From contig NZ_AZFZ01000005.1 in the NCBI RefSeq assembly GCF_001435895.1, positions 41,290 to 86,841 of the forward strand: a stretch of 45,552 bases of DNA. The letters are read 5' to 3'. The notes beneath the pieces are model-generated. The model searched no databases. It worked only from the letters and a program-made list of their open reading frames with translations, and was not told the DNA's origin. Below, piece after piece: positions 2,672-45,474 of the stretch. A program made the position numbers and the translations under genes. This stretch comes from Lentilactobacillus parafarraginis DSM 18390 = JCM 14109. GTDB taxonomy: Bacteria; Bacillota; Bacilli; Lactobacillales; Lactobacillaceae. Positions within the stretch are counted from its first letter, which is position 1. Each line of letters opens with the position of its first letter.

Positions 2672-2977
2672 TTATTTTTCTAAGAGGGGTAGCAATTTTG
2701 AAACTAAGAAATAAATGGTTTCCGTGTTCATTAAAGTATCCTGAGCATGGGTTAATAAAAGCGAATATGGCACCCTTTCAGCATCCTTCATGAGCTTGTT
2801 CTGTTCAACATGGGCCTTAACGAGCCATTGGTGAGCAGTTGCCATCTGACGTGAAATTTCGTCAGAATTCATGGGCCGATCTGTTAAATGATCCAACTGG
2901 GCGGAAATAATCTGTTTGGCATGTCCGGCAGCCAGCAACATTGTCATCGCAATTTGGTTGCGATCGTCATCAGTCAA
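2672..2977 (-). CDS. PTS lactose/cellobiose-family IIA component (orphan)
   Basis: Small helical phosphocarrier of the lactose/cellobiose PTS family, 101 residues, the usual length. In the family this protein takes phosphate from HPr on a histidine in the motif HAQDHLM and passes it to IIB. Here the motif reads THAQDTLM at residues 76-83. The phosphorylated histidine (H77) and the aspartate (D80) are kept but the second histidine is threonine. The start is TTG at 2975-2977, directly after the IIB stop, with GAGG 8 nt upstream; an ATG at 2970 is out of frame. It is cotranscribed with IIB. No IIC permease or glycosidase is in the window, so the sugar is unknown, and a regulatory rather than transport role is possible. 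Confidence 0.85.
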   Translation of the reverse strand: MTDDDRNQIAMTMLLAAGHAKQIISAQLDHLTDRPMNSDEISRQMATAHQWLVKAHVEQNKLMKDAERVPYSLLLTHAQDTLMNTETIYFLVSKLLPLLEK

Positions 2978-3295
2978 TTAGATCGCCTCAGCAGGTGCAA
3001 AGGTATTCATAATTAATTTAACAAGTTTCTCTCCGTTGGCCCAACCATAGACATCATCGGGAATTGTCATTACAGGCGCCCGACCATCAATCATCTTAAC
3101 TTCTCGATTGTGATAACTCGCCTGTGGGGCAATTAATACTAAGTCAATTTGATTATCCAGGTATGTATCAGCTTGAGTGTAGTCGGATGAAATCAGATTA
3201 AATGAAACATCGTAGGCTTCCATAAATGATTTGGCGGATTTAACCAGAAAATTACTCGAAATACCATTTTCACATATTAATAGCACATTTTTCAT
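2978..3295 (-). CDS. PTS lactose/cellobiose-family IIB component (orphan)
   Basis: Cytoplasmic IIB phosphocarrier, 105 residues. The N-terminal strand and P-loop read VLLICENGISSNFLV, with the phospho-accepting cysteine expected at C8. The family usually has C-S-x-G-M-S-T/S-S here, so the loop is a divergent version. It starts at ATG 3293-3295 behind AAGGAG and its stop abuts the IIA start, which makes a two-gene unit. In complete systems IIB hands phosphate to sugar bound by IIC; no IIC is visible nearby, so it must work with a remote permease or in regulation. Family membership is well supported, function less so. Confidence 0.85.
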   Translation of the reverse strand: MKNVLLICENGISSNFLVKSAKSFMEAYDVSFNLISSDYTQADTYLDNQIDLVLIAPQASYHNREVKMIDGRAPVMTIPDDVYGWANGEKLVKLIMNTFAPAEAI

Positions 3296-3540
3296 GATAA
3301 AAATCTCCTTTTTGTCTTTCGTTCACTTATACAGATTATCATAATGTCGGATTATTATCAAGTACCAATATTTTAAATATGGTTTTAATCGCCCTTATTA
3401 TGGCAATTAAAAGGTTTTTAATGTGTATACCAATTTAAAGATAGATGGCTATACCAATTCCGGCTTTAAAAGTTTTCCGCTGCTCGCTAACCTATCAAAA
3501 TTAACGAATTCATTAAACTATCAGAATGGTTACTCATCTA

Positions 3541-3571
3541 TTGGATTTCTAAAGGTTTCATGGCATATAAT
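3541..3571 (+). promoter_or_regulatory. weak promoter candidate in the 3296-3646 intergenic region
   Basis: TTGGAT (3541-3546) and TATAAT (3566-3571) with a 19-bp spacer, 75 bp upstream of the secreted-protein gene. The long spacer makes this a weak match. The rest of the 350-bp region between the divergent genes shows no gene, repeat or RNA that can be recognised. Confidence 0.4.
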
Positions 3572-3646
3572 AATGTCCCGTGGGAAAGACTGTATTTCTC
3601 AGGATCGTCACATTTATCAGACCATATTGAAGGGAAGAAACTTAAT

Positions 3647-4273
3647 ATGAAATCTGCAACATTACTTTTAGGCCTAGGCCTGGCATTGCCATTATTTTAT
3701 TCGGCCCCAGTCAGTGCGAGTTATGTTAATTCCGCTCCCGCTGCCCTTAAATTAAAGATTCAGCCGGTTAACAACTCCCAAACTAAAATTACCGGTTCGG
3801 TAACGAAGGGATCATTGGTCAAATTGTACCAGGACGGGGCTTACGCAAAAAAGGCCGTTGTCCAATCAAACGGCCGGTTCGTGATCAATTTAAAAAGTCC
3901 GCTGTCACACATCGGCAGCTATCAGTTAACGGCAACCAAGGTGAATTTCAAGCCGCTGACAGAATCATTTAAGGTCACTTCATATCCATACACAAACCAA
4001 ATCAAACCACTTCAAACGCAAGTAACGGCCCTGCAGAAACAGTTGACCTCAATCCAGTCACAATTGTCGACAATGCAAAGTACGGCAGATGGCTTGACCA
4101 ATCAGGATACGACATCCAGTGACTACCAGCGGGCCTTAACAACCGCCGGAAACAATCCTCAGGCCTATCAGGCAACTTACCTGTCTTTGGAGCAACAGGC
4201 CATTGATTTACAGAATCAAATGAACCAGATTCAAACTCAAATTCAGCATTATCAGGATTTGAGTAACTTTTAA
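3647..4273 (+). CDS. secreted protein with Ig-like domain and coiled coil
   Basis: Protein of 208 residues with a typical signal peptide (MKSAT, then a hydrophobic stretch to PVSA) and predicted cleavage near SAS-Y. About residues 25-110 form a beta-rich domain of the bacterial Ig-like kind: ITGSVTKGSLVKLYQDG, then GRFVINL and GSYQLTAT. Residues 115-208 are Gln/Leu-rich heptad sequence (LQTQVTALQKQLTSIQSQ), a probable coiled coil. There is no LPXTG motif, so it is probably released or held non-covalently at the cell wall. The start is ATG 3647 with GAAGGGAAG upstream; the longer open frame before it is not coding-like. The single gene ends in a strong terminator. Function unknown; a surface or adhesion role is inferred. 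Confidence 0.75.
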   Translation: MKSATLLLGLGLALPLFYSAPVSASYVNSAPAALKLKIQPVNNSQTKITGSVTKGSLVKLYQDGAYAKKAVVQSNGRFVINLKSPLSHIGSYQLTATKVNFKPLTESFKVTSYPYTNQIKPLQTQVTALQKQLTSIQSQLSTMQSTADGLTNQDTTSSDYQRALTTAGNNPQAYQATYLSLEQQAIDLQNQMNQIQTQIQHYQDLSNF

Positions 4274-4783: not shown

Positions 4784-5035
4784 TCACATAAATCTCTCAA
4801 TTAAATAAATAATCAACGGTACAATAATTCCCGTTGCCACTAAAGAAATTAATGCATAGTTTATGTGAGTTAAATTATCAATTCGATGTTCATTTTCAAT
4901 GGACTTGGCCAAAGCTTTATCCGCTTTTTCATTTAAATCCGCTTGGTCGCTTAGCTGTTGCTTAATAGAAGAAATATCTTCTTTAATTCCAATTAACATC
5001 TCAGTCATGTTAATTTCGTCAGGAACTGCCGTCAT
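4784..5035 (-). CDS. XhlA-like lysis-associated membrane protein
   Basis: Protein of 83 residues: an N-terminal amphipathic coiled coil (about 10-58, IKEDISSIKQQLSDQADL) and one C-terminal membrane helix (about 60-80, ALISLVATGIIVPLIIYLI). This matches the haemolysin XhlA family found beside phage lysins, where it helps holin-type lysis at the inner face of the membrane. The ATG at 5035 overlaps the endolysin stop, with GGTGGT just upstream, so the two are translationally coupled. It is the last gene of the late operon. It may act as holin accessory or second holin; this is inferred from family and position. Confidence 0.8.
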   Translation of the reverse strand: MTAVPDEINMTEMLIGIKEDISSIKQQLSDQADLNEKADKALAKSIENEHRIDNLTHINYALISLVATGIIVPLIIYLIERFM

Positions 5036-5859
5036 TATTTACCACCAGCCTTTACCGCAAAGATAAACTTAACCTTGTCCTTATTAGCTGTATAGTACCC
5101 AGTTGGCGTAGAAAGTCGATAAATCTCACCATATTTAATTGGTGTAGCGTAAAATCGGCTCCCTTTAATCAGACGTGTATGACGTTTAGATTTGAATTGA
5201 ACGTCGTTAAATTGGTGAATTACGCTTTGTGTTGCTTCGTATAGGCCTGGAGTCTGATAATATTCCGGTTTAGCAGGTTTAATAACTACCCCACTTCCGG
5301 ACAGTGAACCATCAAAATCTAAACTAGCGTCAACCTTTAATCCATCATAGTTATCAGTATATTGCCAAGCATTCACATTATCAATTCCCGGTTGACTAAC
5401 GCCATACGCTGCTACCCAAATATGTTTATCAATAAGTTCAGCTCGATCAATTCGCTTTTCAGCAAACCATGAACCGGATCCATAAGTAATAACGTTGGTA
5501 AAACCGTTGGCTTTTAACTCCTTTAAAAAGACATCTACTTCGGCTGTGGTCTTCCAAGGAAGGTCTTGTGCTTCCACATCTAGGGCCAAGACTGTGGATT
5601 TATCCAACCCAAAGCTTTTTACCCAAGCTAAGAAATACTTAGCTTCTGATGAACCATGACCATGAAAGAAATGATAAACACTAACACTACCAAATACTTT
5701 GAATCCGTTAGCCACTTGCTCTCTAGCTTTAGGGTTAATGTATCCAGTGCCTTCCGTCAATTTAACCACCGTGGTATCAATTCCGTGACTTTTTAGAGAT
5801 TTCATGTAGGTCTCAGAACTGCCTTGGTAAACAGATAAATCAGCAACCTTTTTTGTCAT
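5035..5859 (-). CDS. phage endolysin, GH25 muramidase
   Basis: Wall hydrolase that cuts N-acetylmuramic acid-beta-1,4-N-acetylglucosamine bonds to release progeny. It has 274 residues from the ATG at 5859, chosen because AGGAAG lies 8 nt upstream; a GTG at 5868 sits on top of that signal. The GH25 domain fills about residues 1-190: VADLSVYQG with the first catalytic-site aspartate (D7) and LALDVEAQD with D94 and E96. A linker around residue 200 leads to a C-terminal SH3-like/DUF5776-like wall-binding region ending YYTANKDKVKFI. There is no signal peptide, so export needs the holin. It lies between holin and XhlA. Confidence 0.92.
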   Translation of the reverse strand: MTKKVADLSVYQGSSETYMKSLKSHGIDTTVVKLTEGTGYINPKAREQVANGFKVFGSVSVYHFFHGHGSSEAKYFLAWVKSFGLDKSTVLALDVEAQDLPWKTTAEVDVFLKELKANGFTNVITYGSGSWFAEKRIDRAELIDKHIWVAAYGVSQPGIDNVNAWQYTDNYDGLKVDASLDFDGSLSGSGVVIKPAKPEYYQTPGLYEATQSVIHQFNDVQFKSKRHTRLIKGSRFYATPIKYGEIYRLSTPTGYYTANKDKVKFIFAVKAGGK

Positions 5860-5871
5860 TTTCGTCACTTC

Positions 5872-6339
5872 CTACTTTTGTTCAGATGATTGGGGTTCGT
5901 TAAATACTTCCGGATCGTCATCGACTGGAACGTCGGGTGTAACGTCATTTGTAGGCGCCGGAGTAACAGGTGCTTTGTGATTATCTCCCTTTAGAGTGTG
6001 TTTATAATACTGGTAAGCTTGTTCTGCTAATCCTTCAATTGTTTCTGCTTTAAAATTAAAGCCGGACTCCTTTAAGCCAGAATCAACAAATTGATTGACC
6101 ACTTTTTTACGATCAGAATTACTTAAAGCTGGCATACTTGCCACCACAGGTACAAAAGCGTTCGCTAATTTCAAGCCTAATTCCATTCCTTGCTTAATAT
6201 GAGTATTCTTTTCAGTTTTAATTTTAGCTTCAATCAGTGGTTTAACCAATTTATAGGTTGCTGGAATAACTGCAATTAAAAAAGCAACCAATCCGGTTGC
6301 CTTCAAAGAATTAAAAACATCTAAAATATAAGTAAACAT
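5872..6339 (-). CDS. phage holin, LLH-like family
   Basis: Protein of 155 residues with a single hydrophobic segment near the N-terminus (about 10-33, ATGLVAFLIAVIPATYKLV), a charged helical middle part and a Pro/Asp-rich C-terminal tail (APVTPAPTNDVTPDVPVDDD). This layout matches the LLH group of holins with one N-terminal membrane helix and a cytoplasmic tail. The start is ATG 6339 behind AGGAGG; the 15 residues upstream in frame are discarded. It precedes the endolysin by 12 bp. A terminator-like hairpin lies about 30 bp upstream of its start, so expression may depend on read-through or on a promoter close by. Family assignment is moderately sure; the lysis role is strong from context. Confidence 0.75.
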   Translation of the reverse strand: MFTYILDVFNSLKATGLVAFLIAVIPATYKLVKPLIEAKIKTEKNTHIKQGMELGLKLANAFVPVVASMPALSNSDRKKVVNQFVDSGLKESGFNFKAETIEGLAEQAYQYYKHTLKGDNHKAPVTPAPTNDVTPDVPVDDDPEVFNEPQSSEQK

Positions 6340-6368
6340 AAAAAAGCCTCCTGATTTTTTGGGTAAAA

Positions 6369-6404
6369 TAAGAGCACTTATCAAAAATTAGATAAGTGCT
6401 CTTA
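6369..6404 (-). terminator. strong hairpin upstream of holin (terminator or attenuator)
   Basis: Perfect 14-bp inverted repeat, arms 6369-6382 and 6391-6404, 8-nt loop, followed on the minus strand by TTTTA. It sits between the small RNA/receptor-binding region and the holin ribosome binding site. Either the lysis genes are reached by read-through or the hairpin limits their expression. A TATAAT at 6472-6467 (minus) could be part of a promoter feeding this hairpin, but no matching -35 is seen. Confidence 0.65.
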
Positions 6405-6484
6405 AATGTAAATAAAGTTAGTAAAAGTATAAGGGCAAAAGGTCAAATTTGTAGCCCTCTAATTTTATTATAATACTTTTCATA

Positions 6485-6632
6485 AATAAAAGCACCTATC
6501 CAACAGACAGGTGCCAATTCATATATGGGGGTATATGAATAAGAAATATGAACACAACTCGGAAGATATATTCTGAGGGGAATATATTCTTTAAAGTATG
6601 GATAGTAGCTTTTGGGGGCGCTACTATCCACA
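6485..6632 (-). ncRNA. candidate prophage small RNA with three C-rich-loop hairpins
   Basis: A stretch between the receptor-binding protein and holin genes is organised like a bacterial sRNA. In transcript order the hairpins are: 6630-6620/6609-6599 (11 bp, loop containing CCCCCA), 6591-6580/6573-6563 (11 bp with one bulge, loop CCCUCA), 6540-6532/6525-6517 (9 bp, loop CCCCCA), then 6514-6492 followed by TTTTATTT, an intrinsic terminator. All three loops thus share CCC[C/U]CA. A promoter with extended -10 ends 7 nt before the first stem. C-rich loops in Gram-positive sRNAs are known to pair with Shine-Dalgarno sequences, so a translational regulator is the favoured guess. A 62-codon open frame crosses the region but has no ribosome binding site. 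Not matched to a known RNA family. Confidence 0.6.
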
Positions 6633-6638
6633 AAAAAT

Positions 6639-6666
6639 ATTATAGCATTTTTTCACAAAGGTTCAA
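6639..6666 (-). promoter_or_regulatory. promoter of the candidate small RNA
   Basis: TTGAAC (6666-6661), 16-bp spacer, TGCTATAAT (6647-6639), an extended -10 with a perfect TATAAT. It predicts a start near 6632, directly before the first hairpin. It is a vegetative-type promoter and could be active in the lysogen, independent of late control. Confidence 0.65.
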
Positions 6667-6740
6667 GCTCCTTTCTATCGATATTAGTTGTGGAACTTAC
6701 TGGCTAAAACGTAATATATAAACGCTGTTTACAGTTTCCT

Positions 6741-9446
6741 TTATAAATTTAGCGGAATCGCTGCATTAATAAAGCCACCCGCCATTGATGCCCCGTATGT
6801 GACATTTAAATCATATGGATTAGTAACACAAGTAATTTTCCCATCGCTTGTTAAACTGATCATAAACATTGATGCTTGTTGTGCTAATGCTTGTAGAATA
6901 CCAATTGGAAACTTATTTGTGCTTGGAAAACTAATTTTGGAAGTAATATCAGAGGAAAGTTGAAATAATGTTGTACTATTATGAGAGCTATTTCCGCCAT
7001 TGCCTAACATAATATACTGCCCTGTAAGATAAAGCGTACTATTATATATACGATATTGTAAATTGGTTGTACTTGGTTCCCAGTCGCTATTTTCAGTTTG
7101 ACTACTATCAACATTTAAGCTTGTCCAATTTGTATTAGTATTTAATGGACTTACAACTGTATTAATTGTATTGTTTACATCAGTTGTAGTTGCCACGTCA
7201 ATTCCAGACTTTTGAAGTTTTCCTGTAAAATTGGCATCCTTAGTGGTGTCCGCCAAAGTATCAGGAACTGCTGGTACACTGTCTTTAGTAATGTACGGAT
7301 GACCAGTTGTCTTGTCAATTGGCGCAGTATCAAAGGTGTTCTTACCCGTAAACTCTTGATCTGAACCCGTTCGTGCTAGGTCAGACGGTAAACTGCTTGC
7401 GAGTAATAACGGATTATTGTTAACAGTTGGAACAGTATCAAAATTGTTAGCACCAGATAGGTGGGCAACTTTGGAATCGTTAGCTATTTGAGTATAGGTC
7501 ACTGTTTCCAATAGCGTTATTATATAAGCCTTTTTGTCTTCACTGAACAATATCCCAGACCCTGCTCTTGTTGAAGCAGTAATATGGATGATACCTCTTA
7601 TTGGAGAAGCAGAAGGATTGTTTAACGTTTCAGCAGTGCAGTAAATTGTAAAGTATCCATTTGGCAATATGCTTATTTTAGCGCTTAAATCATCGGTGTC
7701 TCCCAACATTAATAAGGGCATACCGGTGTCATCGGTTACCTTAGATTTTTGCCAGTTTGATGTGTCTGTACTGTGAACAACTTTACTGTCATCAGCAGGT
7801 GTAATAGAGCTGCCATTAACTTCAATTGAGCCATCCTTATTATCAGTAACCTTATCCTCTGGAGCTGGTAAATGTGTGACTGGGACTGAGCCAACAACTA
7901 TCATTAAATTCGTTAGTTGATATGTTGCATGTGAACCATCAATTGTTGCGTGTATTTTTTGACCACTAACAATATCTTTGTCGGGAATAGTAGCAGTTCC
8001 TTGGAAATGATGAATACCATCTGTTGTAATATGTTGGTTATTTACAAAAGCATTCCAATTTAAAGCCCAGCCTAACCAATGTACACCACCATCAGCATTT
8101 TTAACTACTAAATCATATGAGTAATAAATTTGCGTGCCAGAAGGTAAGGATGAAAATCCGCTGTATAGTGGAAAATTTTGAATGGTTTCTCCCACTCCAC
8201 CTTGTGCAGTATAAGATAAAACATTATCCGTTTGCAGCACAATATTTCTTAAATTCGTTATGTCACTTAGCTTATTATATGGCTGTACCTTAACCCCATT
8301 AAGTTGTTCAGTTCCATCTTTGTTATCAGTAACTTTAGTACTCAATCCATTGTTTAAATCAGTAACAGTAACGTACTTACTTAAATCTGGACTTACACTT
8401 CCACAATTTTTCCATGTTCCGGCATCCCAAACATATAAATCAGTACCAACAAAATAACAATAACCTTCTTGATTTCCAGTCGTTGGAAGTTGTGAAGCAT
8501 CATTGACTGTACCTTTAACAACTAATCCAGCACCAACAGGACCTTGTGGACCAATTGGTCCAGTAGCACCCGTTGCACCAGTATCACCTTTATCACCCTT
8601 TTGTGAAACAAGGTAAAAGTCTTTTGTTGTGTCATCAGTGTAGTTTAAAGTAGCTTTCATCCACAAATAGGGATTTGTAGTCGTTGTAGCAACGATGTTA
8701 TTTGACCAAGTTCCTGTTGGAGCAGTAGTTGCACTATTTGAAATTTGATATTGAATTGTAGTTGAAGAAACACCTGTGCCAGTATTTCCTTGAATACCTT
8801 GATCACCTTTAGGTCCTTGTAATGGTCCGCAATCTTTCCAAGCACCGTTCACCCAAACATATAATTCTTCACCAACTAAATAGCCATCACCTTCATTTGC
8901 TGTTGAGGGTAAATTCGAAACTGATGAAACTTTGTCTTTGATTTCAAGACCAGTACCAGTATCACCTTTGTCACCTTTATCACCCTTTTGAACATTATGA
9001 ACTGCATTCTCCATTTGGCTACTTAGATCATCAAATTGTTGCTTAAAATCATTTAAAGTAATAACTGGGATCACTTCACCAGTATCACTCATGAGGTTCT
9101 CTTCAATTGAAAATCCTAACGTTCCATCGCTTGGAAAGATAGCCTGCGTACCATCATTCATAGTAACCCAAACTTCAATATCATAATCATCCGGAACCAA
9201 TGTGTTCATAATATCCTGATTAATTGGAAAGCTTAGTGTTCCACCAAGCGGACTAGTTACAGTGGTTAAATCAATAGTTTGTTGCATGATATAGCCATCA
9301 TCGTTAGCTATTTTTACCAAAATTGACTTAGCATTAGTTAAATCAAAGGCTACCCCGTCGGCCGTGAGTGCCAGATTAAAAGCAGTGGTTGTATCTAAAT
9401 ATTTAACCACATCATTATCATCCGTGAATGCGAGCTCCTTACTCAT
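6741..9446 (-). CDS. baseplate/receptor-binding protein with BppU-like N-terminus and collagen-like segments
   Basis: Likely host-recognition protein at the tail tip, 901 residues from ATG 9446 (AGAAGG upstream). Residues 1-115 resemble the N-terminal domain of lactococcal BppU, which anchors the protein to the baseplate. Then come three collagen-like Gly-X-Y stretches (GDKGDKGDTGTG near 155, GPKGDQGIQGNTGTG near 212, GATGATGPIGPQGPVGAG near 290) alternating with two copies of a 45-residue module ending in LYVW-x3-W-K-x-C-G. The middle repeats VTDNKDG; the C-terminal half is beta-rich and probably contacts wall polysaccharide. The gene overlaps the small coiled-coil gene upstream by 8 bp. It is the last structural gene; about 335 bp without protein genes follow. 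The receptor is unknown. Confidence 0.8.
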   Translation of the reverse strand: MSKELAFTDDNDVVKYLDTTTAFNLALTADGVAFDLTNAKSILVKIANDDGYIMQQTIDLTTVTSPLGGTLSFPINQDIMNTLVPDDYDIEVWVTMNDGTQAIFPSDGTLGFSIEENLMSDTGEVIPVITLNDFKQQFDDLSSQMENAVHNVQKGDKGDKGDTGTGLEIKDKVSSVSNLPSTANEGDGYLVGEELYVWVNGAWKDCGPLQGPKGDQGIQGNTGTGVSSTTIQYQISNSATTAPTGTWSNNIVATTTTNPYLWMKATLNYTDDTTKDFYLVSQKGDKGDTGATGATGPIGPQGPVGAGLVVKGTVNDASQLPTTGNQEGYCYFVGTDLYVWDAGTWKNCGSVSPDLSKYVTVTDLNNGLSTKVTDNKDGTEQLNGVKVQPYNKLSDITNLRNIVLQTDNVLSYTAQGGVGETIQNFPLYSGFSSLPSGTQIYYSYDLVVKNADGGVHWLGWALNWNAFVNNQHITTDGIHHFQGTATIPDKDIVSGQKIHATIDGSHATYQLTNLMIVVGSVPVTHLPAPEDKVTDNKDGSIEVNGSSITPADDSKVVHSTDTSNWQKSKVTDDTGMPLLMLGDTDDLSAKISILPNGYFTIYCTAETLNNPSASPIRGIIHITASTRAGSGILFSEDKKAYIITLLETVTYTQIANDSKVAHLSGANNFDTVPTVNNNPLLLASSLPSDLARTGSDQEFTGKNTFDTAPIDKTTGHPYITKDSVPAVPDTLADTTKDANFTGKLQKSGIDVATTTDVNNTINTVVSPLNTNTNWTSLNVDSSQTENSDWEPSTTNLQYRIYNSTLYLTGQYIMLGNGGNSSHNSTTLFQLSSDITSKISFPSTNKFPIGILQALAQQASMFMISLTSDGKITCVTNPYDLNVTYGASMAGGFINAAIPLNL

Positions 9447-9579
9447 TAGTTTTCGCCTTCTTTCTAAGCTGATTATTTTCAATTTTTAATAACGCAATTT
9501 GTTGATTTTTTGCTGCCATATCTTGACTGTACTCATTAACTAATTGGTTAATTAAATCTTGTGCGTTAATATCATTCAT
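9439..9579 (-). CDS. small coiled-coil protein of the baseplate region
   Basis: A 46-residue protein starting MNDINAQDLINQLVNEYSQ, with heptad-like sequence through KNQQIALLKIENNQLRKKA. The start ATG 9577-9579 has AAGGTGAT upstream, formed across the stop of the previous gene, and the end overlaps the start of the receptor-binding gene. Such tiny coiled-coil genes between baseplate and fibre genes are common in Lactobacillus phages and may help trimer assembly, but no function is known. Confidence 0.7.
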   Translation of the reverse strand: MNDINAQDLINQLVNEYSQDMAAKNQQIALLKIENNQLRKKAKTNE

Positions 9580-26699: not shown

Positions 26700-28595
26700 T
26701 TAAAAACTAAAATGATCACTGGTAAAGAATTCGTTGACCTCCTCATTACTCATTCCATTAAATGGATTCTTTTTATCTTCTTTAAGGCCATGATTAGGAT
26801 TTTCAAAATAAAAAAGGGCTTGAGACATGGCATCGATAGTGGCATCGGCACAATCAATTTTCGAAGTCAACGCCGTTCGATCAATTTTAATACCATATGG
26901 ATTAGCCACTGTTACAGCGTTAGCCAAGCAGGTCTGCAAAATCGGATCAGCCAGCATCTCAATATTTCCCGCAATAAACTGATTTCTCAAAAATACTGTG
27001 GGCGAGCTCAAACTAACCGTCCCTTGCTTTAAAGTAATAAAAGGCACTTCTGGCATATTATTATCCAACCAATCAGTAATTGCACTAGCCTGATAAGGAT
27101 CATAAATGAAGGCCTTAACTTTCAAATGATGATCGTTAACAAAATCCAGGAACCAGCGTCCAACAAAATCTTCATCAATTAAGCCATAAGAATTTTGCGA
27201 AATATCACAAAAGCCTAACTTTTCTGCGTTTGAGTAATTAATTCCATCTTGTTTTTCTTTCACAATAATGGAATTATCTGCTCGGGCTAACGGAACAAAT
27301 GAATGCTGCAAGATGAAATATTTCTTTTGTTCGCCATTCAAATGTGGGAAAACAAAACTATAAGCCGTATCATCTGAAGCATGTGATAAATCAAAACCCA
27401 CATAGCAATCTTGATTATCAATTTCGAAATCAGAAACAACTGACTTTTGAATATCATCTAGTTTCAAATATTTATCTTTAGCCGTCTGCAACCACATATT
27501 GAGGTTACGGTTAATGAAATCATTTAACGTACCGTCTTCCAGCTTAGAATCACGTTCACTAATTAACCCTTTCAGTAGGGTATCATGCTTAGCCGGTAAA
27601 TCTAGTAATGGATTACTTTTCACCCATGTTTCGGGGTTCTCAACTTCATCTTGGTCATCCTGCTGCCAAATTAATGCCAACGTTGAATCTTCCGTTCGGT
27701 TAGAATCTTTTTCCATCACCTTAGTGAGTCGTCTAACATCACTATACATCGGGACTTTAGGGTTACTGTATGCCGTACTGATAAAAAATGTTTGTCGGTT
27801 ACTGGTTTGAACTTGTCCAGAAGTGACCTTAGAAATCACATCTGAATTAAAGTTTTCATCCCCGTATTCATCCACAGTAGCAAAGAGGAAATGAAAGGCA
27901 TCTAATTGTGCACTACCAGCTGTCATTCGTAATATCTGGTTTTGAGTCTTCGTGGATTTCAAAACATCATCATTAATCGCAATATTCTGATCCTTGATTA
28001 ATTTACGAAATCCAGGCATTTCTTGTAAGCTGTTAAAAGTCTGTTTAATGTAACGCCAAGACTTCTTAGACTGCTTATCAACCGGCGCCAAGTAACATAA
28101 ATCGGCGTTAAACTGGTCACTAGCCTCGACCAAGTAAGCGTAAAGGATCAAGATATTCAATAAATATGACTTACCATTAGTCCGAGCCACTGAAACCATA
28201 CATCGCTCAAATCGCTTCTGCTTGTCTTCCTTTGTTCGCCATCCCTGAGAAAGGCACAAGATTGCTTGTTGCCAAATCATCAGTGGTATCGGCTTGTTTT
28301 GAGAAACATCAGGGCACATGCGTGCGAAGTTACAGATATTTCGGCATTTATCCAAATCATAGTAATACGGAAACTTATCCTCCGTAGATCGTTTTAAATC
28401 ATTCAAATGTCTAAACGCTGCTAGTTTAATTGTTTTGCAGGCTAACTGTTGACCAGTTAATACCCGGTAACAATAAACAGTGGCCGGATCACGGTATTTG
28501 CTTTTGATTTCATCAAAGTAGCCTTTCCCATCAAGCTGCTGAAAGATTTTATCCAAGTTAGTATTTCTTTGAGTAAAATCAAATTCCTGTACCAC
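26700..28595 (-). CDS. terminase large subunit
   Basis: Packaging motor and nuclease, 631 residues. The ATPase domain has a deviant Walker A at 135-143 (SVARTNGKS) and Walker B with catalytic acid LFATVDEYGDE (D242, E243). The RNase H-like nuclease follows, with its first metal aspartate in CYVGFDLSHASDD (D402), and a later aspartate is likely in KIDCADATIDAMSQALFYF. The start is GTG, overlapping the terS stop by one base (TAGTG), with GGGGGAAGTGA upstream. With the P27-like small subunit and HNH gene upstream this is the set typical of cos-cutting HK97-like phages. Confidence 0.93.
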   Translation of the reverse strand: MVQEFDFTQRNTNLDKIFQQLDGKGYFDEIKSKYRDPATVYCYRVLTGQQLACKTIKLAAFRHLNDLKRSTEDKFPYYYDLDKCRNICNFARMCPDVSQNKPIPLMIWQQAILCLSQGWRTKEDKQKRFERCMVSVARTNGKSYLLNILILYAYLVEASDQFNADLCYLAPVDKQSKKSWRYIKQTFNSLQEMPGFRKLIKDQNIAINDDVLKSTKTQNQILRMTAGSAQLDAFHFLFATVDEYGDENFNSDVISKVTSGQVQTSNRQTFFISTAYSNPKVPMYSDVRRLTKVMEKDSNRTEDSTLALIWQQDDQDEVENPETWVKSNPLLDLPAKHDTLLKGLISERDSKLEDGTLNDFINRNLNMWLQTAKDKYLKLDDIQKSVVSDFEIDNQDCYVGFDLSHASDDTAYSFVFPHLNGEQKKYFILQHSFVPLARADNSIIVKEKQDGINYSNAEKLGFCDISQNSYGLIDEDFVGRWFLDFVNDHHLKVKAFIYDPYQASAITDWLDNNMPEVPFITLKQGTVSLSSPTVFLRNQFIAGNIEMLADPILQTCLANAVTVANPYGIKIDRTALTSKIDCADATIDAMSQALFYFENPNHGLKEDKKNPFNGMSNEEVNEFFTSDHFSF

Positions 28596-32516: not shown

Positions 32517-34820
32517 TCACTTAATCCAATTCATATTTGGACTAACTTTCAGCTTTATTCCTTGATAAACGTTCCCAACTCTGGAATGTTTCATCTCAAA
32601 CTTCTGTTTCATTTCACGTCCGAATTTCTGTTTGCTCATTGAGTATTCAGAATTTTCTTTCGACCAGGATTGATACTTTTTGAATAGTTCACCGGCTGGG
32701 GCACGATATTCATCACCCCGATCACAACAATCATCCACAAACAAACTCACAACATCCATCTCTTCACGGTATTGCCGACTGGCACGGGTAACGCTAATTG
32801 GTGGGTTTAATCCTTCGTGTTGCCACATTAGTGCTCCCTCAACAATCCAGTTAAGAATGCCCACAGATTCACGTTGCAGTTTGTACTTCAAATCCTTATC
32901 AACCTTTTCAACTGGAATTTGAACTTTAAATGGAATCAACATTAATCGCCGCCAAATACCATCATCGGTACCCCGAATAATTGGCTTGTGGTTGGTAGCC
33001 AACCACAATTTGAACTGTGGTTTAAACTCAAACTCTTTTCCGTAAAGGAACCGGGCAGTTACTTTATCACCACCGGTCAACTGCTTAACTAATCCTTCAT
33101 CCAATCTCACACCCTCATTTGGTTCACTTGATGTAACTAACCGGGCATTTTCCAGCCGGGCAATATCGGAATTAGCACCGGAATCATTCTGCTTCACCAT
33201 AATGGATTTAGCCTGCATCGATTTAGCATAGGTTCCGAGAATATCCGAAATCATATCAGTAAAAATACTTTTACCATTGCGACCATTACCGTAAAGAATA
33301 AACATCACCTGTTCTTTAATGCTGCCTGTGGATGAATAACCCACAGCTTTTTGAATGTAGTGAATTAATTCTTTGTCACCATCAAATATCTGATTTAAAA
33401 ACTCCGTCCATTCGGGGCAGTCGATATTATCGGTGTATTCCACACTAGCTTGCTGGGAAAACATTTTATCAATATCGTGGTTTTTCAGAATGCCGTTGGT
33501 TAAATCAATGTAGCCGTTGGCAGCATTTAGCAATGTAATATCCTTATCAAACTCGCCATGTAATACCGGCACTCGATGTTGCACCTCGTTTAACATGGCC
33601 CGCTTGGCACTGTTTGAACGGCTTTTTCTTAGAAAAGTACGCCAGGCGTTTTTAGCTTTTTCAGGATCGACATCAGCGGCAACCACCAACTTTTCATTTT
33701 TCATGTTGTTAACCGTCATATCAACGAATTGGGCTACTTTGCCTTCGTTATCCATTTCCCAATAACTGCCGTTATAGAAATACCAAGATTTATCAATATA
33801 GGAATATTTAACCAGCTTGCCGAACACATCCATGAATCGATCAGCATTTCCGGTATCATCCCACGAACGAGGGGGAATTTTCTTAGCCTTTTTGGTTTTG
33901 CCAAAATTGATAATGTACTTGTTTAACGGTTCTCGCTGTGGGTTAAAAGTTTCCTGGGTTTCGTTAATGGCTTTGTTCAGCAATCCAATTCCATACGTGG
34001 TTTTGCCGTGTTTCTCGTCATATTTTGGCCGCATCAAACTGGATTTTCTGAATATCTCATCCATTTTGTTAAAATCTCGTCCCGTCCAAAACGCTAAATC
34101 GTTGGCAAATGCCATATCCGCTTCACTCTGGGATGTATAGAAACCATCCCAACCGCCCTTCATAAACATCTTGAACCGTTTGCCGGTCTTACTTAATTCG
34201 GCTCGTCTAACAATTTCATCAATGGATAAATCATTCTTACGGATTGGCGTGTGGTTGGGCAATTTAACCACGTTATCTTTACCCAAGAATTTGGTGTACA
34301 TCAGTTTAATTACTTGCGGATCCGGGGCATTGATGTGATCCGCATATCTGCCAACCGTATTACCAGTTAACGCGAAGAATCGTCCGGACTCATACATTTC
34401 AACGTTGCCTTTGCGACGTCGATCACCAGGAATTTTGCCTTTAAAAATAGCATGAATCCCGGTACCGGATAAACTAATTTCAACATATGATTTTGTCATG
34501 GTTAATACATCACGAACGGTATTTTGTTGATAATCACCAGCTTTGAATCGATCCAGTTCATCGGCGATGTGGTCAATATCCAAGCCGACATAACCATTCG
34601 CAAAATAGAATGCCAACCCATCCATATCGTACGTTTTCAATGCTCTTAACGCCGTTTGGTAATCAGTCCAACTATTTGGATCATTTGTGCGCCCAGCGCC
34701 ACCATCGATTGCATTGTGGGGAATTTTCGTGTACTTGTTGCGTTCCGGCTTCCAAATCTTTTTGAAAAGCCCCCATTGTTTCAAGGCCCGCAACTCGTTT
34801 GGTATGTTTTCATATCTCAA
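32517..34820 (-). CDS. primase-helicase (AEP-type primase N-terminus, D5/P4-type helicase)
   Basis: Replication protein of 767 residues. The N-terminal 300 residues look like an archaeo-eukaryotic primase: GLDIDH near 77 (the metal D-x-D), SGTGIH near 117 and GRFFALTGN near 145. The C-terminal half is a D5-like SF3 helicase: CPEWTEFLNQIFDGD, Walker A GNGRNGKS near 510, ARLVTSSEPNEG, and FKLWLATNHKPIIRG. A winged-helix end follows (FGREMKQKFEMKH). It should open and prime the origin just downstream. The gene starts 18 bp after DUF669 and ends within the last iteron block. Confidence 0.88.
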   Translation of the reverse strand: MRYENIPNELRALKQWGLFKKIWKPERNKYTKIPHNAIDGGAGRTNDPNSWTDYQTALRALKTYDMDGLAFYFANGYVGLDIDHIADELDRFKAGDYQQNTVRDVLTMTKSYVEISLSGTGIHAIFKGKIPGDRRRKGNVEMYESGRFFALTGNTVGRYADHINAPDPQVIKLMYTKFLGKDNVVKLPNHTPIRKNDLSIDEIVRRAELSKTGKRFKMFMKGGWDGFYTSQSEADMAFANDLAFWTGRDFNKMDEIFRKSSLMRPKYDEKHGKTTYGIGLLNKAINETQETFNPQREPLNKYIINFGKTKKAKKIPPRSWDDTGNADRFMDVFGKLVKYSYIDKSWYFYNGSYWEMDNEGKVAQFVDMTVNNMKNEKLVVAADVDPEKAKNAWRTFLRKSRSNSAKRAMLNEVQHRVPVLHGEFDKDITLLNAANGYIDLTNGILKNHDIDKMFSQQASVEYTDNIDCPEWTEFLNQIFDGDKELIHYIQKAVGYSSTGSIKEQVMFILYGNGRNGKSIFTDMISDILGTYAKSMQAKSIMVKQNDSGANSDIARLENARLVTSSEPNEGVRLDEGLVKQLTGGDKVTARFLYGKEFEFKPQFKLWLATNHKPIIRGTDDGIWRRLMLIPFKVQIPVEKVDKDLKYKLQRESVGILNWIVEGALMWQHEGLNPPISVTRASRQYREEMDVVSLFVDDCCDRGDEYRAPAGELFKKYQSWSKENSEYSMSKQKFGREMKQKFEMKHSRVGNVYQGIKLKVSPNMNWIK

Positions 34821-38649: not shown

Positions 38650-38807
38650 TATTCCACCTCGTGATGTAAAATATATTCAGATAGTCGTTGTTTTTCTTTA
38701 TCTAGGATAAAGAAATATGCCAACAAGCTATGATCGTTTTCCACGGGTGTGCGTCCAATAATCATATTCAAACGTTTGATACGGTTCTGTATTGTTAATG
38801 TTTTCAT
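38649..38807 (-). CDS. small early phage protein, unknown
   Basis: 52 residues (MKTLTIQNRIKRLNMIIGRT at the start, then LLAYFFILDKEKQRLSEYIL). The start ATG 38807 has GGAGGG 7 nt upstream and the stop overlaps the next ATG (TAATG), so it is clearly part of the translated operon. It is helical and basic at the N-terminus. No function known. Confidence 0.65.
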   Translation of the reverse strand: MKTLTIQNRIKRLNMIIGRTPVENDHSLLAYFFILDKEKQRLSEYILHHEVE

Positions 38808-45401: not shown

Positions 45402-45414
45402 TGCCGACTGCAGG
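45402..45414. other. attR: attR, right prophage attachment site
   Basis: Second copy of TGCCGACTGCAGG, here forming the discriminator base, the 3' strand of the acceptor stem and the start of the T stem of tRNA-Thr. The phage end therefore restores the tRNA 3' end, so the gene stays functional after integration. Confidence 0.85.
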
Positions 45415-45474
45415 AGTTGAACCTGTGACCCTCGGTTTACGATACCGATGCTCTACCAGCTGAGCTAAGCCGGC
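45402..45474 (-). tRNA. tRNA-Thr (anticodon CGT)
   Basis: 73 nt in full cloverleaf: acceptor GCCGGCT/AGTCGGC with one G-U, D arm GCTC-GAGC, anticodon stem TCGGT/ACCGA with loop ATCGTAA, T stem ACAGG/CCTGC with loop TTCAACT, and A73. Anticodon CGT reads ACG. CCA is not encoded. The 3' end is the prophage attachment site. Confidence 0.93.

Follow-up and report, generated by a model that had tools for sequence, protein, structure and literature searches.

C-rich sites that pair with ribosome binding sites have been described, in the openly available parts of the literature, for the small RNAs LhrC, RsaE and RNAIII. LhrC of Listeria, which is encoded in several copies and has three C-rich sites, blocks lapB and oppA (PMC4132741, PMC8383071, available parts); its redundant CU/C-rich UCCC sites, loops included, were shown in the available text to bind a G-rich ribosome site. 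Small regulatory RNA genes are also carried by prophages: those found in the literature, among them DicF, AgvB, SprY and STnc6030, are single genes of enterobacteria and staphylococci as far as the available texts go, whereas the relatives of the RNA described here form islands. A word search of the available text of one 2025 review gave no Lactobacillus, no 'array' and no 'multiple sRNAs', and a 2021 paper, in its available part, gives 307 putative sRNAs in L. casei. In a literature search with most subscription papers outside its reach, no paper named a C-loop RNA or a phage sRNA island of lactobacilli. The loop mechanism is familiar; what is new here, as far as we found, is an island in a phage that holds relatives of a host sRNA.

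The RNA was analyzed in a window of 45,552 nucleotides, the whole stretch of Lentilactobacillus parafarraginis DNA under study, where it lies between the tail and lysis genes of a prophage. The features of this region are as follows.

6741..9482, minus strand: last tail gene (tail fibre), upstream of the sRNA slot; PHROGs tail fibre families
6639..6666, minus strand: promoter TTGAAC-16-TGC-TATAAT (extended −10); sequence scan, recurs in relatives
6485..6632, minus strand: predicted C-loop small RNA of about 147 nt; fold z −8.2, covariance models R1 and R2 (see below)
6598..6631, minus strand: hairpin 1, loop GCCCCCAAAA at 6619-6610 (holds CCCCCA); MFE fold
6563..6591, minus strand: hairpin 2, loop CCCTCA at 6579-6574; MFE fold
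6517..6540, minus strand: hairpin 3, loop CCCCCA at 6531-6526; MFE fold
6484..6515, minus strand: intrinsic terminator hairpin (6515-6491) and T run; sequence, MFE fold
6362..6472, minus strand: second small RNA unit, −10 TATAAT at 6472-6467, start at about 6460, long terminator hairpin 6404-6370
5875..6339, minus strand: holin, downstream of the sRNA slot; phrog_2609 holin, 2.4e-31
5035..5868, minus strand: endolysin, GH25; Pfam PF01183, 5.9e-32

The analysis confirmed a predicted free-standing gene for an RNA of about 147 nt on the minus strand at 6632-6485. The MFE of this segment was −50.7, compared with −23.7 (sd 3.3) in 200 dinucleotide shuffles, none of which was as good (z −8.2). Together with the promoter, the three hairpins and the intrinsic terminator, this bears out the original prediction of a real structured small RNA, with which our sequence and coordinates for the gene agree to 1-2 bases. 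One promoter match by itself is unremarkable (15 in 4 kb, where 14.0 are expected); the promoter carries weight because it recurs across related phage units. The best −10 was TG-extended in 31/31 of these units and at 293 of 3000 places picked at random from those loci, and the TG extension is absent from the search model. The −10 was positioned 4-8 nt before the start of the match in 28 of the 31 units, 12 nt before it in one and inside the match in two. Production of the RNA in the lysogen, predicted from its own promoter, is plausible.

Hairpins with C-rich loops are concentrated at this locus. A 401-nt interval contained three, compared with 0.41 in shuffles (1/200 as high; 0/200 when stems of at least 7 pairs were counted), and its opposite strand contained none. 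The density in the remaining window was 0.22-0.42 per kb, and a scan of both strands of the window found the RNA locus to be the sole cluster of three C-loop hairpins within 200 nt.

The CCC[C/U]CA loops support the likeness, drawn originally, to Gram-positive sRNAs that pair with ribosome binding sites. Like this class, the window RNA has its own promoter and an intrinsic terminator at its predicted ends; like LhrC, it has several C/CU-rich single-stranded sites that include loops, three of them in hairpins. LhrC1-5 of Listeria monocytogenes is likewise a multicopy small RNA with redundant C-rich sites, loops included; according to the available text, its CUCCC..UUUU sites are located in a loop, in a single-stranded stretch and in the terminator, whereas those of the window RNA are three CCCCC/CCCUCA hairpin loops. 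The terminator loop of the window copy is not C-rich, unlike that of relatives such as L039 and of the core chromosomal RNAs. The C-loop RNA differs from LhrC also in being found in prophage slots and near purB. Rfam holds LhrC; a cmscan of 6300-6750 at E<=10 returned 23 Rfam matches, none of them LhrC. Multicopy LhrC is the closest functional analogue; the window RNA probably acts in the manner of LhrC or RsaE, by analogy of its sites and not by membership of a model. RsaE, hairpins H7, H13 and H14 of RNAIII, and SprD of Staphylococcus, as well as FsrA of Bacillus, share C-rich sites that pair with ribosome sites, according to the available texts, but gave no Rfam match above the gathering score and differ in architecture and hosts.

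Only a tRNA reached an Rfam gathering score in the window. In permissive scans, tp2 (28.3 of 50 bits, E 0.012), tsr26 (29 of 141, E 0.013) and VrrA in the slot, and RsaJ, tsr26, mir-218 and ARRPOF in 12 related loci, all fell far below theirs. The multi-copy Rfam sRNA family rli28 (RF01492), found in the same genus, was considered because one paper, in its available part, links it to lactobacilli. It was ruled out by position, its two matches in the genome of the window being on other contigs, at G000:C135:329-515 and C223:6507-6690. Many rli28 copies are present in genomes G003 and G016.

The tail gene gave no Pfam match, and the Pfam match of the holin was below the Pfam cut-off. An XhlA-like gene accompanies the holin and endolysin on the lysis side of the slot. 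Units resembling the second RNA unit (about 6460-6362) are present in three other prophage slots (L037, L046 and L040). In the window, the terminator of this unit stops about 24 nt short of the holin start; since this leaves no promoter space, the lysis genes would be reached by read-through of two terminators. At the far side of the window, a tRNA gene (45402-45474) adjoins the phage integrase (44079-45212) and is likely to mark the attachment-site end of the prophage.

The RNA or diverged copies of it were found by BLASTN (E<=1e-5) in 7 of 24 genomes of the genus: at two places in the genome of the window, as a copy identical over 186/186 bases along with diverged copies in one genome, and as diverged copies only in five. 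An identical copy is present in L. farraginis DSM 18382. Among 397 genomes of the family, matches were confined to the same seven. The places inspected adjoin an apparent last tail gene, judged by gene order and look, protein families having been searched for the window alone. Among the INPHARED phages, BLASTN with the minus strand of 6720-6430 yielded four weak partial matches (E 0.08 to 1), plasmids gave no match to the RNA, and no R2 match was present in the 5.9 kb examined of the L. brevis Lb phage, whose holin is 55% identical.

We compared the interval upstream of the holin for 28 of 31 holin matches; the three left out were an identical second copy in G005, a further fragment of one holin and a G014 match that was weak. 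C-loop RNAs were present in 15 of the 28 slots (the window, L037, L038, L039, L040, L042, L043, L046, L124 and L109-L114). In L109-L114 the holins are 94-97% identical to that of the window and the RNA is of another C-loop type, which R1 barely recognizes (E 0.0019 to 0.16). No C-loop RNA was seen in the other 13 slots, which include L116, where the contig ends 121 nt upstream; the RNA is therefore dispensable. A hairpin-density count was made for 18 of the 28 slots, 14 with the RNA and four without. The former had 2.7-11 C-loop hairpins per kb, against 0-0.72 per kb elsewhere in those loci and 0-1 hairpins on the opposite strand; the latter had none. Shuffles matched the hairpin count of the slot in 0 or 1 of 200 cases for eight slots and in 0-10 of 200 for L109-L114.

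Some slots are filled with such units. Slot L037 of L. hilgardii (6120-9310, G007:C111) is 3,193 nt long, has no ORF longer than 76 aa and contains about 15 promoter-terminator units, eight of which are R1 matches at E<=0.01; slot L040 of L. farraginis (2,672 nt) contains about ten units and five R1 matches. These unit counts are approximate, as the script used was loose: some of the 15 units in L037 overlap, one or two units were called in L117, L119 and L121, which lack C-loop RNAs, the window RNA was split at a false inner terminator, and none was called in L043, where the RNA lies further upstream. In Lentilactobacillus prophages, the slot that separates the lysis genes from the last tail gene thus often appears to hold one to about ten units on the same strand. 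The original prediction of a single sRNA was right about the structured RNA, but missed both this variable island and the relationship to a chromosomal RNA family. Eight IMG/VR contigs (nine loci) included three with strong R1 matches, one of them the L. farraginis contig already counted, and four with scores of the L109 type (E 0.0004 to 0.0013); locus L195 had no R1 match at E<=1.

Conservation of the structure was examined in an alignment (A1) of 16 of the 26 extracted phage RNAs. The ten excluded were G009, a duplicate of G001a, six copies of the L109 type and three units that had diverged further. Across its 43 pairs, 88.5% of 653 cells were paired, compared with 31-50% when the structure was slid by 1-3 columns, and 22 of the 43 pairs had changed on both sides, compared with 12.9 in shuffles; none of 500 shuffles reached any of five measures. 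As the structure was taken from the window sequence, the measure of paired cells is favoured, and the double changes are less affected. The slides matter too, because related sequences can exceed such shuffles without structure. RNAalifold independently predicted the same helices (33 pairs, 18 with double changes). A lack of compensatory stem changes in homologous prophages had originally been named as a refutation; the prediction withstood this test. Double changes occurred in 8 of the 12 pairs of hairpin 1, and 95.5% of the cells of hairpin 3 were paired. G-U cells outnumbered A-C cells, 74 to 32 in A1, which fits an RNA made from the minus strand, and 46 to 11 in the chromosomal alignment described below.

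Only the 5′ hairpin bears out the idea that stems differ and loops are kept. In hairpins 2 and 3 the AU-rich stems are themselves largely conserved in relatives, and column by column the loops of the phage RNAs, which vary in length, are no more conserved than the stems. Loops in A1 were 53% C and 64% identical and stems 80% identical, the low loop identity being due in part to the variation in loop length.

An 18-mer of hairpin 2, ATATTCCCCTCAGAATAT, is also present in a chromosomal RNA. The named genome collection contained exact copies in 23 stretches, of which 17 were from Lentilactobacillus or Lactobacillaceae: 15 at the chromosomal RNA and two of phage type in L. farraginis. The remaining six, in unrelated records, we presume to be chance. 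The 18-mer led to tandem chromosomal RNAs; in L. fungorum these occupy, along with a small gene, the interval from an alpha/beta-hydrolase-like gene to purB. Among 17 loci tested, the hydrolase-like gene was beside the RNAs in ten further loci and purB in four further Lentilactobacillus loci, several of the 17 being cut off before purB could appear. Type A chromosomal RNAs have CCCCC(C) and CCCUCA loops and a C-rich terminator loop; type B have UCCCCC, UUCCCCU and UCCCCG loops. Alignment A2 comprised 21 of the 31 extracted chromosomal RNAs (13/17 of type A and 8/14 of type B). Those left out were near-duplicates, copies whose hairpin 2 carries an insertion, and L023 and L036, in which the loop of hairpin 2 has lost its C run. 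In A2, 97.7% of 598 cells were paired and 14 of 29 pairs had changed on both sides (0/500 shuffles). Its hairpin loop columns were 79% C and 90% identical, compared with 87% identity in stems and 68% in linkers.

The two groups were compared with covariance models built from phage RNAs only (R1) or chromosomal RNAs only (R2). R1 scored 142 bits on the window RNA, which is a member of its own training set. R2 matched the window RNA at 34.3 bits (E 1.5e-6) over 6663-6544. A search of 24 genomes of the genus with R1 gave 40 matches at E<=0.01, spread over 15 genomes. All 40 fall at two kinds of place. In phage slots there were 25 (16 training copies, two identical to training copies and seven new), and 15, none used in training, were at the tandem chromosomal locus near purB, 13 over places of the 18-mer and two over places of R2. 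Nine of the 24 genomes had no R1 match at this threshold. Seven of them (G008, G011, G013, G014, G018, G019 and G022) were in the R2 sample and all seven were matched by R2, G012 and G020 being outside that sample; R1 thus sees only part of the chromosomal RNAs.

In a family sample of 301 genomes, R2 matched 15/15 genomes of the genus and 11 of 286 others, from five further genera. In seven of the 11 the loops or linkers are C-rich (two genomes of g35, four of g22 and one of g20). The g20 RNA (L156) lies directly beside purB, as in Lentilactobacillus, and has several hairpins, most with CCCC loops, suggesting from its sequence and position that the core family predates Lentilactobacillus and extends beyond it. 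R2 matches in G202, G096 and G278 look like chance and that in G065 is doubtful; by locus, L163, L164 and L165 of the family sample lack the multi-hairpin C-loop layout and were attributed to chance, L162 being doubtful. Order-level R2 matches outside the family (five genomes, E 3.5e-6 to 4.8e-4) also lack this layout and were taken as chance, and an R1 match in G303 proved to be two adjacent terminators.

Phage and chromosomal members were therefore matched reciprocally by the two models, and compensatory base changes were found. Common descent is the simplest reading of these sequence comparisons; convergence remains the alternative, since what the two groups share is largely a short AU-rich hairpin with the same loop. 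From the reciprocal matches we take the phage RNA to be related to a conserved host sRNA that has C-rich loops, and probably to mimic it.

Target analysis was neutral: statistics on G-rich ribosome binding sites neither prove nor exclude targeting. The original prediction named int, the peptide transporter gene and the small gene at 38807. These do have GGAGGG sites but are weak candidates: GAGGG lies upstream of 33 of 360 sampled genes in a related species, and other window genes pair equally well or better. The best in the window were the replication protein gene (32517-34820, pairing −14.8) and the gene for the large terminase, TerL (26700-28595, −13.2), whose sites contain GGGGG. Such sites precede 2 of 47 window ORFs and 21 of 361 in a sampled chromosome, so that the window is not enriched. 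For each of the loops, matches of 6 nt or more were present on a related chromosome in 16-32 of 360 upstream regions, while 1-7 of 360 coding controls had them; letter-shuffled versions of the six loops reached the observed count in 2, 26, 46, 112, 126 and 157 of 300 trials.

We favour, with a probability of about 0.58, a prophage-borne trans-acting sRNA that belongs to a Lactobacillaceae family with chromosomal members, outside Rfam, and whose C-rich loops would block G-rich ribosome sites, imitating or reinforcing the host RNA. This reading builds on what comparison of the loci brought out: units with predicted promoters and terminators, conserved structure, C-rich loops, a constant location with tail genes on one side and lysis genes on the other, arrays, and apparent relatedness to the RNA near purB. 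Beyond this, we infer expression, pairing, repression and a benefit to the phage. By analogy with LhrC, the single-stranded C-rich loops would first contact G-rich ribosome binding sites, and translation would then be blocked, as LhrC does in Listeria. By this route the phage RNA could mimic the host RNA or strengthen its action, tuning host mRNAs in the lysogen; phage mRNAs whose ribosome sites carry a G run, for example those of the replication and terminase genes, may perhaps also be affected.

Repeated C-rich loops could instead titrate an RNA-binding protein, with phage copies adding decoy. CsrB-type RNAs titrate a protein via GGA loops, and the C-loop RNAs likewise present several similar loops on stems that vary, many copies having such a loop in the terminator too, and arrays would raise the dose. 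The available text of one report also describes binding of Listeria SpoVG to the C-rich apical loop of Rli31 in vitro. However, the context of the loops differs (CCCCC, CCCUCA, CCCCUAG), the available literature documents mRNA pairing for the C-rich loops of Gram-positive sRNAs, and we regard a protein decoy as unlikely.

It is improbable that the phage RNA or its array companions act as a sponge, titrating host sRNAs or competing with the core RNA so that the host regulon is relieved and not enforced. Phage and core RNA loops are nearly the same, so both would compete for the same partners, and sponge sRNAs of phages exist (SprY and AgvB, from the available texts); the C-rich loops of the phage RNA are, however, able to pair directly. 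We know of no G-rich partner RNA.

The position of the last terminator, so close to the holin that the lysis genes need read-through, would suit a mere transcription insulator or timer between tail and lysis genes; this explanation is very improbable, as it leaves the C-rich loops, the covarying 5′ hairpins, the units' own promoters and the chromosomal relatives unexplained. Chance or non-functional repeats are the least probable reading: AU-rich hairpins form easily and single promoter matches are at background, but the z of −8.2, the covariation (0/500) and the restriction of all 40 model matches to two kinds of place speak against them.

On the preferred reading of a phage relative of a host sRNA, a family absent from Rfam would connect a conserved RNA from the chromosome of lactic acid bacteria with islands in phages, which hold from one to about ten or more sRNA genes and always lie at the same site. 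The slots provide a natural series for the use of a host RNA regulator by phages of food bacteria, with none, one, two or many copies, and with prophages that have near-identical holins and another C-loop RNA. The models allow annotation of the core RNA in several Lactobacillaceae genera. Similar host RNAs, and the genes of related viruses at the same spot, suggest that viruses tap host gene control. A further, tentative possibility is that temperate Lentilactobacillus phages keep an expandable island of diversified copies of a core host sRNA, an RNA-only toolkit that would rewrite the post-transcriptional regulon of the host, units without C-rich loops being further, unrelated regulators.

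Several units of L037 have no C-rich loops, for example those of the GTTAAGAGG... type, which recur in L040 and L046; they may represent other sRNA families. In slot L038, a gene pair that looks transposase-like (2723-3870) lies inside the sRNA island and splits it.
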